A stretch of DNA of 64,000 nucleotides from Vibrio sp. JC009. Lineage in GTDB: Bacteria > Pseudomonadota > Gammaproteobacteria > Enterobacterales > Vibrionaceae. Below are positions 41,632 to 54,996 of this stretch, one piece after another. The translations under genes were made by a program, and so were the position numbers. Location: contig NZ_CP092106.1 of the NCBI RefSeq assembly GCF_029016485.1, forward strand, positions 930,001 through 994,000, given 5' to 3'. The notes under the pieces are model-generated. The model ran no database searches. It saw nothing but the letters and a program-made list of their open reading frames with translations, and was not told the DNA's origin. The first letter of the stretch is position 1; every line of letters begins with the position of its first letter.

Positions 41632-42644
41632 TTAAGAAGTTATTTTTGCTGGTCTTACTGGCAGCTGCCATTGCTGGTGGCGCTGTTTTTTATGGCCTGC
41701 AACAGGTTAATCAGTATCTGGGTCAGCCGATGGCACTGGATTCAGCTGAAATCATTACCATCAAAAGTGGCAGCAGCTTCCAGTCCGTTCTCAGACAGCT
41801 TGAGGAAAAAGAGTGGATAAAGCCAAGTGACTATTCACGATTTGTACGTCGCGTAAGGCCGGAACTGGTCAAACTCAAGGCCGGTACATTCCAGCTTCAG
41901 CCCGATATGACTCTGGCACAGGCGCTGGCATTTCTTATCGACGGTAAAGAGCATCAGTTTGCGATTACCTTTGTGGAAGGAAGCCGTTTTAGCGAATGGC
42001 GTGAAATCCTTAACTCTGCCCAGTTCCTGACTCACGATACCAAGGCGCTTTCTGAAGCTGAGATCGCGAAAAAGCTTGGACTGGATAAAGAAAAGCTGGA
42101 AGGCTTGTTTCTGGCTGAGACCTATCATTACACTGCCGGTACTTCTGATCTTGAGATATTAAAGCGCTCTAACGATAAACTGACTAAGGTGCTTGAAAGT
42201 AGCTGGGAAGCAAGACAAGACAAGCTTCCGCTAAAAAGTGCTTATGATGCCTTGATTCTGGCATCAATTATTGAAAAAGAGACCGCTGTGGAGTCGGAGC
42301 GGACCACGGTTTCGTCGGTATTTAACAACCGTCTAAAGCGCGGAATGCGCCTACAGACAGACCCGACAGTGATCTACGGAATGGGCGATAAATACAAAGG
42401 GAATATCCGCAAGAAGGATCTTCAGACGCCCACTGCGTATAATACCTACGTGATTAAAGGCCTGCCGCCAACGCCGATAGCGATGGCGGGTGAGGCTTCT
42501 ATCAAAGCTGCTTTAAACCCTGAGAGCACAAAGTATCTCTACTTTGTCGCCAGCGGAAAGGGTGGCCATGTATTTTCCAAGACTTTGACCGAACATAACC
42601 GTGCAGTTCGTGCATACCTGAAACAGTTAAGAAAAAAGAAATAA
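41628..42644 (+). CDS. mltG: Endolytic murein transglycosylase MltG
   Basis: A 338-residue inner-membrane enzyme that cuts nascent glycan strands. It has one N-terminal membrane segment (about 3-22), a LysM-like part and the YceG domain with catalytic Glu in ASIIEKETAV. RLQTDPTVIYGMG and TPTAYNTYVIKGLPPTPI are family hallmarks. It starts with GTG inside the pabC end. Its TAA overlaps the ATG of the broken host tmk (TAATG). Confidence 0.95.
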   Translation: MIKKLFLLVLLAAAIAGGAVFYGLQQVNQYLGQPMALDSAEIITIKSGSSFQSVLRQLEEKEWIKPSDYSRFVRRVRPELVKLKAGTFQLQPDMTLAQALAFLIDGKEHQFAITFVEGSRFSEWREILNSAQFLTHDTKALSEAEIAKKLGLDKEKLEGLFLAETYHYTAGTSDLEILKRSNDKLTKVLESSWEARQDKLPLKSAYDALILASIIEKETAVESERTTVSSVFNNRLKRGMRLQTDPTVIYGMGDKYKGNIRKKDLQTPTAYNTYVIKGLPPTPIAMAGEASIKAALNPESTKYLYFVASGKGGHVFSKTLTEHNRAVRAYLKQLRKKK

Positions 42645-42703
42645 TGAAAGACGCGAAATTTATTGTAGTAGAAGGACTGGAAGGTGCATTATTTTTGGTT
42701 TGA
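42644..42703 (+). pseudogene. tmk: Host thymidylate kinase, 5' fragment (interrupted)
   Basis: The frame begins at the normal place, overlapping the mltG stop, and reads MKDAKFIVVEGLEGA, the beta-1 strand and first part of the P-loop. After GGTGCA (42683-42688) host sequence ends, and the frame runs five more codons into the element to a TGA. The rest of the gene is at 54406-54996. Joining the two across one GGTGCA gives 15 + 195 codons, a perfect 209-residue Tmk. This 19-residue product cannot be active. Confidence 0.95.
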
Positions 42704-42755
42704 TATTTATGTAAACCAATTGATATTATTTTTGGTTGTGATATAATGTAAACCA
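42689..42755. repeat. Duplicated left-end recombinase repeat
   Basis: Two direct copies of TTATTTTTGG - 10 bp - ATGTAAACCA, at 42689-42718 and 42726-42755 (37-bp period). The outer copy is the inverted partner of the right end. The inner copy overlaps the promoter at 42720-42747. They are the likely binding sites of the recombinases or their accessory proteins. Confidence 0.85.
42720..42747 (+). promoter_or_regulatory. Extended -10 promoter of the element operon
   Basis: TTGATA (42720-42725), 16 bp, TATAAT (42742-42747) with an extended TGA just before the -10. The start would be near 42754, 29 bp before the element tmk. The inner terminal repeat occupies its spacer and start region, so a protein bound there should repress it. 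Confidence 0.7.
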
Positions 42756-42782
42756 ATGAGAGATGGTTTTGAGTGAGGTTAT

Positions 42783-43412
42783 ATGAATTCAGGCTGCATG
42801 ATTGTTTGTGATGGTAGTAATGGTGCAGGGAAAAGCACGGTTATTAAGTCAATCAATGATTATCTGCTATCAGTAGGTCGGGAAGTCGTTTTAAGCAGAG
42901 AGCCTGGAGGAACACCCATTGGTGAGAAGGTGCGAGAAATCATTCTTAGCCCTGATACCCCTGAGATGTGTGATACTACTGAATTATTGTTGTTTGCCGC
43001 ATCTCGCGCTCAACATGTTCAAGAGAAAATACTACCCAGTATTGAGAGCGGGAAGATTGTTCTTTCTGATCGTTTTGAGTCTGCTACTGTTAGTTTTCAG
43101 CATTACGCTCGTGGCTTACCTCTCCCACTAATTGATCAACTTAACGAAATCGCGCTCAACGGCTTTAGAGCGGATATGACAATCATCCTTGACCTTGATC
43201 CAAGAGTGGGTCTGGAACGTGTTAACATGCGTGGTGATGGATTAGATCGTCTAGAGATGGAAAAATTAGAATTTTTAGATAAAGCACGTAACGGCTATTT
43301 AGAACAAGCATCTAAATATCCTGAGCGTTTTGCAATTGTAGATGCGTCTCAGCCACTGGCGGCAGTTATAGAGGACGTTTTATCTATTGTTAAAGAAGTT
43401 ATTCAGATTTAA
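42783..43412 (+). CDS. tmk: Element-encoded thymidylate kinase (replacement Tmk)
   Basis: A complete 209-residue dTMP kinase, the same length as the host enzyme but clearly divergent. The P-loop is DGSNGAGKST, the base-binding stretch is SREPGGTPIGEK, and the DR motif region reads LSDRFESATVSFQHYARG, where the host has GDRHDMSSQAYQGGG; the LID holds RGDGLDRLE. All essential elements are present, so it should make dTDP and replace the disrupted host gene. It is first in the element operon behind a strong promoter, 19 bp before the first recombinase. Its P-loop DNA contains GGTGCAGG followed by AAAAGCAC, the same sequence as the host insertion core. Confidence 0.93.
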   Translation: MNSGCMIVCDGSNGAGKSTVIKSINDYLLSVGREVVLSREPGGTPIGEKVREIILSPDTPEMCDTTELLLFAASRAQHVQEKILPSIESGKIVLSDRFESATVSFQHYARGLPLPLIDQLNEIALNGFRADMTIILDLDPRVGLERVNMRGDGLDRLEMEKLEFLDKARNGYLEQASKYPERFAIVDASQPLAAVIEDVLSIVKEVIQI

Positions 43413-43431
43413 CCTCTGGGGGCTTTGTTAG

Positions 43432-53483: not shown

Positions 53484-53744
53484 TCACTTATTCCAGATCC
53501 AAATCTTCTTTCTCTCATAGTAATCATAACTTTCTGATCTTGATACTGAAGGATTTGGGGGCGATTTCATTAAAAATGTGACCAAAGGCAAAGTACCTAA
53601 GATAAAAATATTAACAAGGAAGATATCTACGAACTGTTTGAAAGCTTTAGGGTGTTGAGATTTTTTCTTTAACAGTGGGTAGGCTAAGCAAAAACTCACT
53701 ATGATGTACAGGAAATACACAAGATAATAAATTAAGTCTTCCAT
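53484..53744 (-). CDS. Small membrane protein, element cargo
   Basis: An 86-residue protein with two predicted membrane segments (about 5-24 and 41-60) and a polar, aromatic tail. GGAGG precedes the ATG (minus strand, about 53750). It is the first gene of a two-gene unit with the secreted protein. Function unknown. It reads against the recombinase operon, so it likely has its own promoter in 53745-53990. Confidence 0.55.
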   Translation of the reverse strand: MEDLIYYLVYFLYIIVSFCLAYPLLKKKSQHPKAFKQFVDIFLVNIFILGTLPLVTFLMKSPPNPSVSRSESYDYYERKKIWIWNK

Positions 53745-54110
53745 TTAGCTCCTCCTGAACTAACTCACTACACTTTAGCACTAAATATTGACAGATATTG
53801 TGTTTATTACGTTATATCAGCAACTAAACATTAAAAATAGTCCTTCTATGGTCAGAGAAGTAGCTAACTGTGACTTGGGACTTACGTCATCACTTTACCT
53901 TGAGACTATGTTGTTAGTCTTTGACCATTTTAGGCTTTTAATGAGCAAGTCTTTTCTGAGTTTCCAGTAGGGGATCTAAACATTTGTCCAAATGCCAACG
54001 GGATGGTCAAGAAAAATCATAAACGCCTAGCGAGTAGCGAGCTGTGCGAGCGTCAGGAGTGGCTTTATTATTTTACTTTACCATCATTCTCTTAAATACC
54101 CTTTTGGCAG
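53745..54110. other. Non-coding stretch near the element right end
   Basis: No convincing gene. Most of it is AT-rich, but 54024-54060 is a GC-rich patch with repeated AGCGAG units (CTAGCGAGTAGCGAGC, then GCGAGCG), which stands out from the surroundings. Confidence 0.4.
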
Positions 54111-54141
54111 GGTGATGGTTTCACGCAGTGAGGCCATCACC
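54111..54141. repeat. Hairpin near the element right end
   Basis: GGTGATGG (54111-54118) and CCATCACC (54134-54141) enclose TCAC-GCA-GTGA, forming a stable interrupted stem of 12 pairs. There is no T tract, so it looks more like a structural or protein-binding site than a terminator. Confidence 0.55.
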
Positions 54142-54171
54142 TTGCTAAGACAAAGGGGAAGGGTTCAACAA

Positions 54172-54405
54172 GGTTTACGTTTTCTTTTTTCAAAGCTTTA
54201 TGAGGGTAGCCTAACATGTGATAATCTGTTTACATTACAGCTTAATTTAGAGCTTTGTGGGGTAAGTTTACATTTCACACTAGAAATCCCACTTGAATTT
54301 GTCGCTCTATGCATGAAAGGTAGAAGAATGGTAGTTATCGGGGCTATTTCTTACATCACTCACTCACTCACTCTGTGGTTTACATGGTTTTTTTCCCAAA
54401 AATAT
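54172..54405. repeat. Right-end array of GTTTACRT half-sites and terminal repeat
   Basis: The octamer GTTTACAT (or GTTTACGT) occurs at 54173, 54228, 54266 and 54378 in one orientation, the reverse of ATGTAAAC at the left end. The last belongs to the full terminal repeat TGGTTTACAT (54376-54385), 10 bp, CCAAAAATAT (54396-54405), which touches the GGTGCA core. Likely arm-type binding sites. Confidence 0.75.
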
Positions 54406-54996
54406 GGTGCAGGAAAAAGCACCGCAATTGCAGCGATTGAGTCCGTTTTAAACCAGCATGGAATAGAAAATATCAGCAAAACCCGTGAGCCGGGTGGTAC
54501 ACCGCTTGCTGAAAAAATGCGTTCACTGATTAAAGAAGAGCACGAAGGTGAAGAGCTAAAAGACATTAGCGAACTGCTTCTGCTTTATGCAGCAAGAGCG
54601 CAACTGGTTGAGAATGTGATTAAACCTGCTCTGGAAAAAGGAAACTGGGTTATCGGTGATCGCCACGATATGTCTTCTCAGGCCTATCAGGGGGGCGGAC
54701 GCCAGCTTGATAAAACGGTAATGGGAACGCTAAAGGATGTCACTTTAGCTGGTTTTAAACCGGACCTGACCCTTTATCTGGATATCGACCCGAAACTTGG
54801 TCTGGAACGTGCCAGAGGGCGCGGAGAGCTGGACAGAATCGAGAAGATGGATATCAGCTTCTTCGAGCGTACCAGAGAAAGATACCTTGAACTTGCCAGC
54901 AGCGATGAAACGGTTATCACAGTGAATGCAGGCCAGACGATAGAAGCGGTCACCGCTGATATTGTGGTGGCGCTGGAAAACTGGCTGAAGAGCTAA
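54406..54996 (+). pseudogene. tmk: Host thymidylate kinase, 3' fragment
   Basis: From GGTGCAGG onward the frame reads GAGKSTAIAAIESVLNQHG to the normal end, including REPGGTPLAEK, GDRHDMSSQAYQGGGR and the LID RGRGELDR. It lacks the beta-1 strand and the first P-loop Gly. The frame is open upstream into the element (possible starts at 54112 or 54313), but the hybrid would have SQKYGAGKST, with Gln at the first P-loop Gly, so it should be inactive. No frameshift or stop is present in the host part, so it has not begun to decay. Translation across it may still help holB, which starts 10 bp later. Confidence 0.93.

Follow-up and report, generated by a model that had tools for sequence, protein, structure and literature searches.

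A predicted integrative element splits tmk at its P-loop in Vibrio sp. JC009 and brings a putative replacement thymidylate kinase

The DNA analyzed here is a stretch of 64,000 nt from Vibrio sp. JC009 (the window, to which all coordinates refer), in which the host thymidylate kinase gene tmk lies in two pieces on either side of an 11.7-kb insert whose first gene encodes a second Tmk (Table 1). The insert is predicted to be a mobile element. A sequence-only reading of the same DNA had proposed that the host gene is split after codon 15, resumes at GAGKST, and rejoins cleanly over GGTGCA, and both the coordinates and the in silico joining agree: with one copy of GGTGCA retained, the pieces form a 630-bp open reading frame (ORF) of 209 codons without an internal stop. 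As it stands, the 5' piece runs on for four more codons after the break and then meets a stop. The flanking genes were named according to the mltG-tmk-holB order described in PMC10653934. The guanine-plus-cytosine content of the inserted 11,717 bp is 40.0%, as against 46.3% in the remaining window. A Thymidylate_kin search of the whole genome returned two matches only, both at the split locus, and no third Tmk; an intact host-type tmk elsewhere, which the sequence-only reading had named as evidence that would speak against it, was thus not found in the genome.

Table 1. Features of the split tmk locus and the inserted element in the window.
Feature	Coordinates	Strand	Basis
Host mltG homologue (upstream neighbour)	41628..42644	+	338-aa ORF; as query, located next to tmk at type A loci
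Host tmk 5' piece, 15 codons, ending in GLEGA	42644..42688	+	
Left core GGTGCA (attL)	42683..42688	+	
Integrative element, 11,717 bp (predicted)	42689..54405	+	
TGTAAAC box, 21 nt from left core	42710..42716	+	
Promoter-like site TTGATA-16-TATAAT before element tmk	42720..42747	+	11/12 consensus matches
Second TGTAAAC box, entered by the -10 of the promoter-like site	42747-42753		
Element tmk (eTmk), 209 aa, predicted replacement thymidylate kinase	42783..43412	+	
648-aa tyrosine-recombinase-like protein (likely); seems to lack the first catalytic arginine	43432..45378	+	invariant residues, weak fold matches
679-aa tyrosine recombinase	45378..47417	+	PF00589, 49.6 bits; conserved R, H..R, H, Y
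328-aa TetR-type DNA-binding protein (likely)	47414..48400	+	distant relative in L021 matches TetR_N
429-aa tyrosine recombinase	48401..49690	+	PF00589, 31.8 bits; alignment
145-aa VPA1267 family protein	49700..50137	+	NF040697, 190.8 bits
RecD2-like helicase	50134..52338	+	PF13604, HHH_RecD2; TIGR01448, 358 bits (below the cut-off of 500)
187-aa protein, no family match	52435..52998	+	
150-aa protein, no family match	53075..53527	-	
86-aa protein, no family match	53484..53744	-	
Two further TGTAAAC boxes inside right end	54228-54234, 54266-54272		
TGTAAAC box, 21 nt from right core	54378..54384	-	
Right core GGTGCA (attR)	54406..54411	+	
Host tmk 3' piece, GAGKST to stop	54406..54996	+	
Host holB homologue (downstream neighbour)	55007..55960	+	317-aa ORF; used as holB query

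The first element gene had been described as a complete, diverged tmk of 209 codons, and the family searches bear this out. Its product passes the cut-offs of both Pfam Thymidylate_kin (147.8 bits, cut-off 27) and the NCBIfam dTMP kinase equivalog (160.7 bits, cut-off 83.25), is 41% identical to the host Tmk over element residues 13-202, and matches 33 distinct solved sequences, the best of which are thymidylate kinases. Among the matches listed for 249 genomes of the phylum, one gene, that of the genome G334, reaches 63% identity, and the others are at most 46% identical. In a tree of 65 rows, 27 element-type Tmks form one group (Shimodaira-Hasegawa-like approximate likelihood ratio test, 100), outside which lie 33 ordinary Tmks, the joined host Tmk, and four host pieces, with the host rows grouping by taxon. 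Nineteen of the 27 rows are database proteins picked by similarity (20 were fetched and P0141, the Colwellia copy, was left out), which accounts for part of their closeness; neither the seven element genes nor G334 entered the tree in this way. The essentiality of tmk in bacteria is established and is also documented in PMC10653934. The element Tmk is predicted to be active and essential in the host cell, which it likely keeps alive; the strongest indirect indications are the complete genome G334, with this Tmk type only, and the published proof for the related island of Pseudomonas putida KT2440.

The operon that starts with the element tmk encodes two clear tyrosine recombinases, identified by PF00589, and a third recognized by its residues and weak fold matches. 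The latter, the 648-aa protein, has no match in Pfam; its structure model is of middling confidence (mean predicted local distance difference test score of 70.7), and its best seven fold matches are all tyrosine recombinases, none reaching E ≤ 0.001 (best E 0.04). The 328-aa protein itself has no Pfam match either. PADLOC matched the helicase to RecD-like models and several candidate-system models and placed two other proteins near E 0.006, and no convincing defence system was seen by it in the element. The nearest named element Tmks and recombinases come from V. parahaemolyticus, V. lentus, and V. harveyi.

Relatives of the element were collected by a scan of named genomes, which gave 10 loci, and by whole-genome searches, with which 26 loci were classified, the window included. 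In Pseudomonas, 28 of 298 genomes had a match, and 10 strong, 1 intermediate, and 6 of 17 weak ones were examined; Vibrionaceae gave 10 matches in 329 genomes (4 weak ones left aside) and the order-level search 6 matches in 394 genomes (3 weak ones left aside). A class-wide search of 369 genomes returned the genome of the window itself and one weak match, no relatives of the element were found in a scan of viral contigs, and nine plasmid records contained distant matches of 25-28% identity. One locus that starts inside the operon (L031), and whose genome has tmk in two pieces, was excluded from the counts, and L020 is a repeat of L030.

The members share an operon of three recombinase-like genes and a TetR-like gene, and they differ in their targets. 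Type A comprises seven loci (the window, Colwellia, Pseudoalteromonas denitrificans, Pseudomonas sivasensis, Pseudomonas abietaniphila, G616, and G1215) in hosts that include, besides that of the window, Colwellia, Pseudoalteromonas, another Alteromonadales-type genome, and three Pseudomonas. In all seven, the P-loop insertion immediately follows the GCN codon of GLEGA (or of the equivalent motif), the host 3' piece starts at profile position 6, and the element Tmk is the first gene, so that the view that this conserved target would be open to many hosts stands, with seven different hosts using it. In the ten type B loci, tmk is split near profile position 90, the operon has the opposite orientation to that of the window, and a dNMP kinase comes first; the dNMP kinase profile PF21448 matched in 10/10 of these loci and in none of the seven type A loci, window included. 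Both tmk pieces were found in nine of the ten type B genomes, with one piece only in G1057, and the 679-aa recombinase is 35-40% identical to that of the window. Type Y consists of five Vibrionaceae loci in yfbR, type N of three Pseudomonas loci outside tmk (L122, L123, and L124), close relatives whose operon is not preceded by a kinase gene and whose genomes have an intact tmk, and type Z of one distant locus, again in a genome with an intact tmk.

Across these 26 loci, target and first gene are coupled: the P-loop with Tmk (7/7), the mid-gene site in tmk with the dNMP kinase (10/10), and yfbR with YfbR (5/5), while a kinase accompanies none of the three type N operons. In a tree of the 679-aa recombinase (29 rows), type A forms one group (support 100/99) and so does type Y (100/100); type B is not one group, and two type N members lie within it. 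The comparison of Tmks with recombinases that the sequence-only reading had suggested came out in its favor, as the two sets of identities correlate over nine elements (rho 0.75), a value as high being reached in 1 of 5000 permutations.

The element-type Tmks are altered where the elements insert. Ordinary Tmks have 52 columns with a conservation of 90% or more; six of these are changed in the element group, which largely keeps the remaining 46. Three of the changed columns lie at most 9 codons before the type A insertion point, two at most 7 codons after the type B point, and one elsewhere, so that five of the six fall among the 17 of 52 columns near the two insertion points (hypergeometric 0.011); the windows for this test were chosen once the data were known, and the motifs concerned, the P-loop and the DR motif, also form the active site. 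The P-loop sequence is [DE]GxN in 119 of the 120 best relatives, compared with EGx[ED] in 33/33 ordinary rows, and the DNA half-site beside the core is GAAGG-N4-GAA in the host as against GAYGG-N4-AAY in the element genes (7/7). The altered P-loop codons may, as a hypothesis, protect the substitute from re-targeting by its own element; they may also change the enzyme.

A possible outcome of such a replacement is seen in G334. This genome, rated 100% complete, has one Thymidylate_kin match only, which is of the element type, adjoins a mltG homologue, and lies two genes before holB; no match to the 429-aa recombinase family was found in it. It looks like a finished takeover of the native tmk by an element-type Tmk. 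The two genes that separate this Tmk from holB (locus L165, G334:C43, 6774-11417) are unrelated. At the type A locus L126 (G1215), where the element Tmk is intact, a stop interrupts the 429-aa recombinase gene; this looks like an element that can no longer move but has kept its kinase. A second full-length Thymidylate_kin match (135.6 bits, G1309:C181:36384-36953) occurs alongside an ordinary tmk in a Pseudomonas genome.

At the five type Y loci (L021-L025), the interrupted gene encodes the 5'-deoxynucleotidase YfbR. A host YfbR fragment lies upstream (profile 1-73 to 1-75), the break is in the motif SEVLTGD-LPTP, and a full-length YfbR from a different group heads the operon. In four genomes the remainder of the host YfbR lies on the same contig (in one case at its opposite end, as if continuing over the contig start), and in the fifth it lies on another contig. 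With recombinase identities of about 26-34%, these five elements indicate that breaking a gene and bringing a full relative of it recurs in distant kin. The YfbR evidence consists of a motif print and a tree of 23 rows, in which the element YfbRs fall in a second YfbR group that also occurs in other genomes. The conserved-column test returned no columns for YfbR, and its pattern recovered 12/30 ordinary YfbR loci and 6/13 others.

The ends of the elements share an architecture. A [CT]GTAAAC box stands exactly 21 nt from the core at 7/7 type A left ends, as does its reverse, GTTTAC[AG], at 7/7 right ends; among type B left ends, the pattern with this spacing was matched in all 8 loci given (of 10), with a variant box in L121 and L125. 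In the circle that the element is predicted to form, CCAAAAATAT and TTATTTTTGG would lie on either side of the core, a near-symmetric arrangement of the kind used by tyrosine recombinases. The strong promoter that had been proposed before the element tmk finds its counterpart, in a consensus scan only, in the promoter-like site of Table 1; the scan gave six promoter-like sites in the 361-bp stretch covered, compared with a mean of 1.2 in shuffles. Four of the seven type A elements have TTGA at offset 31 and another box at offset 58, a pattern suggestive of a common promoter with a -10 that extends into the box. TCAC/CACT repeats (CACTCACTCACTCA) are present close to the right end of the window element, at 54356-54371, and likewise just inside the right ends of the Colwellia element and one yfbR element (L056 and L076). 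The right end further contains a 21-nt inverted repeat, 81% complementary with a 3-nt loop, at 54104-54148.

Taken together, these observations make it likely, in our judgment, that the tyrosine recombinases of the element inserted it site-specifically into the P-loop codons of the host tmk and that the Tmk encoded by its first gene takes over the essential function. Recombination would take place across the 6-bp core, and the substitute would be expressed from the element's own promoter, perhaps under autoregulation, as the -10 box runs into a TGTAAAC box. The substitute would serve as an entry ticket, an immediate payment for insertion into essential and highly conserved DNA, and its loss would from then on be impossible for the cell unless the element leaves precisely; the differing P-loop codons may meanwhile stop the element from re-targeting its own gene. 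A broader proposal is that each branch of the family aims at a catalytic motif of nucleotide metabolism (the tmk P-loop, the tmk DR motif, or the yfbR motif), where the target DNA cannot mutate away because it encodes that motif, and leads with a self-immune substitute that lacks the attachment codons and is able to oust the native gene for good, as in G334. This proposal is tentative, and we place it slightly short of an even call.

We weighed four other explanations. The substitute could mainly bring a different activity, such as another substrate range or resistance to an inhibitor or a phage protein that hits the host Tmk, rather than rescue. The position of five of the six changed columns in or beside the P-loop and the DR motif would fit this, but the other conserved columns are largely kept, the dTMP kinase equivalog cut-off is passed, and G334 lives, as far as the search shows, with an element-type Tmk alone; we regard this explanation as improbable. 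A chance hit on tmk, with the second Tmk as unlinked cargo that later made the insertion tolerable, is hard to reconcile with the TMPK-type gene being first in the operon, at the end next to the break, in 17/17 classified tmk insertions, with the joint divergence of element Tmk and recombinase, and with the recurrence of the same link at yfbR. We consider it quite improbable, even though the operons outside tmk, two of the three within the type B part of the recombinase tree, have no kinase, which does imply that the operon itself needs none.

It is also conceivable that the element Tmk is inactive and that the split host gene provides the TMPK, for example through the fused 294-aa ORF at 54112-54996, in which the 3' piece is open, continuous with element sequence, and retains GAGKST. 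The host tmk pieces checked show no frame decay, and the ratio of nonsynonymous to synonymous substitution rates relative to intact genes is 0.07-0.20 for the computable pairs, as between intact genes, although synonymous sites are saturated for many pairs; the insertions accordingly look recent, or the pieces are still under selection. In the fusion, however, the first strand and the first P-loop glycine are replaced, and in Pseudomonas putida KT2440 the upstream half of a similarly split tmk can be deleted without effect, whereas the kinase of the inserted island cannot (PMC10653934). This source of TMPK is therefore, in our view, highly improbable. An assembly artefact or a one-off old accident instead of a mobile element is hardly credible and was rejected, since the joints, known in the window from assembled sequence alone and of a type rare among the Vibrionaceae genomes searched, recur together with the same operon in six further genomes, and the element Tmks group against host taxonomy. 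Chance or chimeric assembly, the latter also named in the sequence-only reading as a threat to it, is very unlikely as the origin of the split, because break, codon, and gene order are the same in those six genomes.

Several observations weigh against insertion with replacement as we have put it, or against parts of it. Type A was seen in only one of the 329 Vibrionaceae genomes searched, namely that of the window, so that the search for the same split among vibrios suggested earlier found no further case there, and six elsewhere. The Asn that replaces Glu/Asp in the P-loop of the element Tmk (33/33 ordinary rows having the acidic residue) means that the enzyme might have other kinetics or another substrate. 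The left core equals the right core in three of the seven type A elements and differs from it in four, where exact restoration of the target would not be automatic; in GInt islands, a similar core mismatch has been put down to staggered cuts followed by heteroduplex repair (PMC5385486). In KT2440 the native tmk could not be stitched together despite repeated attempts (PMC10653934), so excision that restores a working gene cannot be taken for granted in this family. At the right end, no convincing outward promoter for the essential holB behind the element was found (three promoter-like sites, 4.9 expected). Finally, the presence of the second YfbR group in genomes whose element status is unchecked means that the missing target motif may predate the element, which makes the immunity idea weaker for yfbR.

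If the replacement reading is right, it suggests that, in this family, replacing the essential gene that is broken is a way of life with several targets and substitutes, not a single accident. It would offer a route by which foreign versions displace essential enzymes, with one genome (G334) in which displacement looks complete, and it makes the use of highly conserved essential DNA as a landing site testable. It is also a warning for annotators and for drug-target work, as the tmk of a strain may be the gene of an element.

Whether such elements had already been described was left open by the sequence-only reading, and for the principle the answer is yes, in two published cases. The first is the tmk island of P. 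putida KT2440 (Wirth et al. 2023, PMC10653934), which, like the window element, breaks tmk between mltG and holB and supplies the only TMPK; deletion, base editing, and complementation established its dNMP kinase, PP_1964, as the essential TMPK. Genes for a TetR-type protein, two tyrosine recombinases, and an unknown protein lie around the kinase gene, the cargo is variable, and the island was reported from several gammaproteobacterial genera, Vibrio not being mentioned in the paper. Our type B loci, compared with KT2440 by its published description, fit it and have a homologous operon. In KT2440, however, the substitute is an unrelated T4-like dNMP kinase and tmk is split at 294 bp (codon 98), whereas in the window the substitute is a Tmk and the split is at codon 15, in the P-loop.

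The second case is the recA mobile element (RME) of Vibrio cholerae S24 (Rapa et al. 2014, PMC4405046), which likewise uses one site in a conserved gene, has at one end a full but diverged version of the gene, and excises as a circle, restoring recA. It differs in its target, in having the recA copy at the end away from the integrase, in its size (32.8 kb), and in its 9-bp inverted repeats; with an integrase and a XerS-like gene as its only such genes, it was set beside the window element by description. No split recA was found in 216 genomes among the matches listed.

Two further groups resemble the window element in their recombination genes. GInt islands (ginABCD; Bardaji et al. 2017, PMC5385486) have a three-recombinase operon at one end, with one recombinase (GinC) lacking the first arginine, to which the two clear and one likely recombinase of the window operon may be comparable, and are described as having 6-nt staggered cuts, a circular intermediate, cargo, and an AT-rich other end. 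A replacement gene is not described in the available part of that paper, and the gene order and proteins seem to differ, the window operon running 648-679-TetR-429-145 aa as against ginABCD with a small GinD. Among six GInt-like Pseudomonas loci (L129-L134, labelled by gene sizes), three gave weak recombinase matches to the window proteins and three none at 1e-4 except a helicase fragment. The strand-biased circularizing elements (SEs; Idola et al. 2023, PMC10214605), set beside the window element by description, also carry a set of recombinase-like genes together at one end, are frequent in Vibrionales, and form a circle; their core genes are intA, tfp, intB, and srap, and the terms tmk, yfbR, nucleotidase, and replace are absent from the text as available. 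Among the open-licence full texts listed by searches, we saw no case of a true Tmk carried into tmk, of an insertion site in the P-loop, or of an element in yfbR. That a broken gene can be replaced is already known from KT2440 (2023) and the V. cholerae recA island (2014). What is new here is that one Tmk replaces another at the P-loop, that target and substitute are coupled throughout a single family, that the ends have a shared architecture, and that the substitutes differ at the attachment codons, perhaps as a form of self-immunity.

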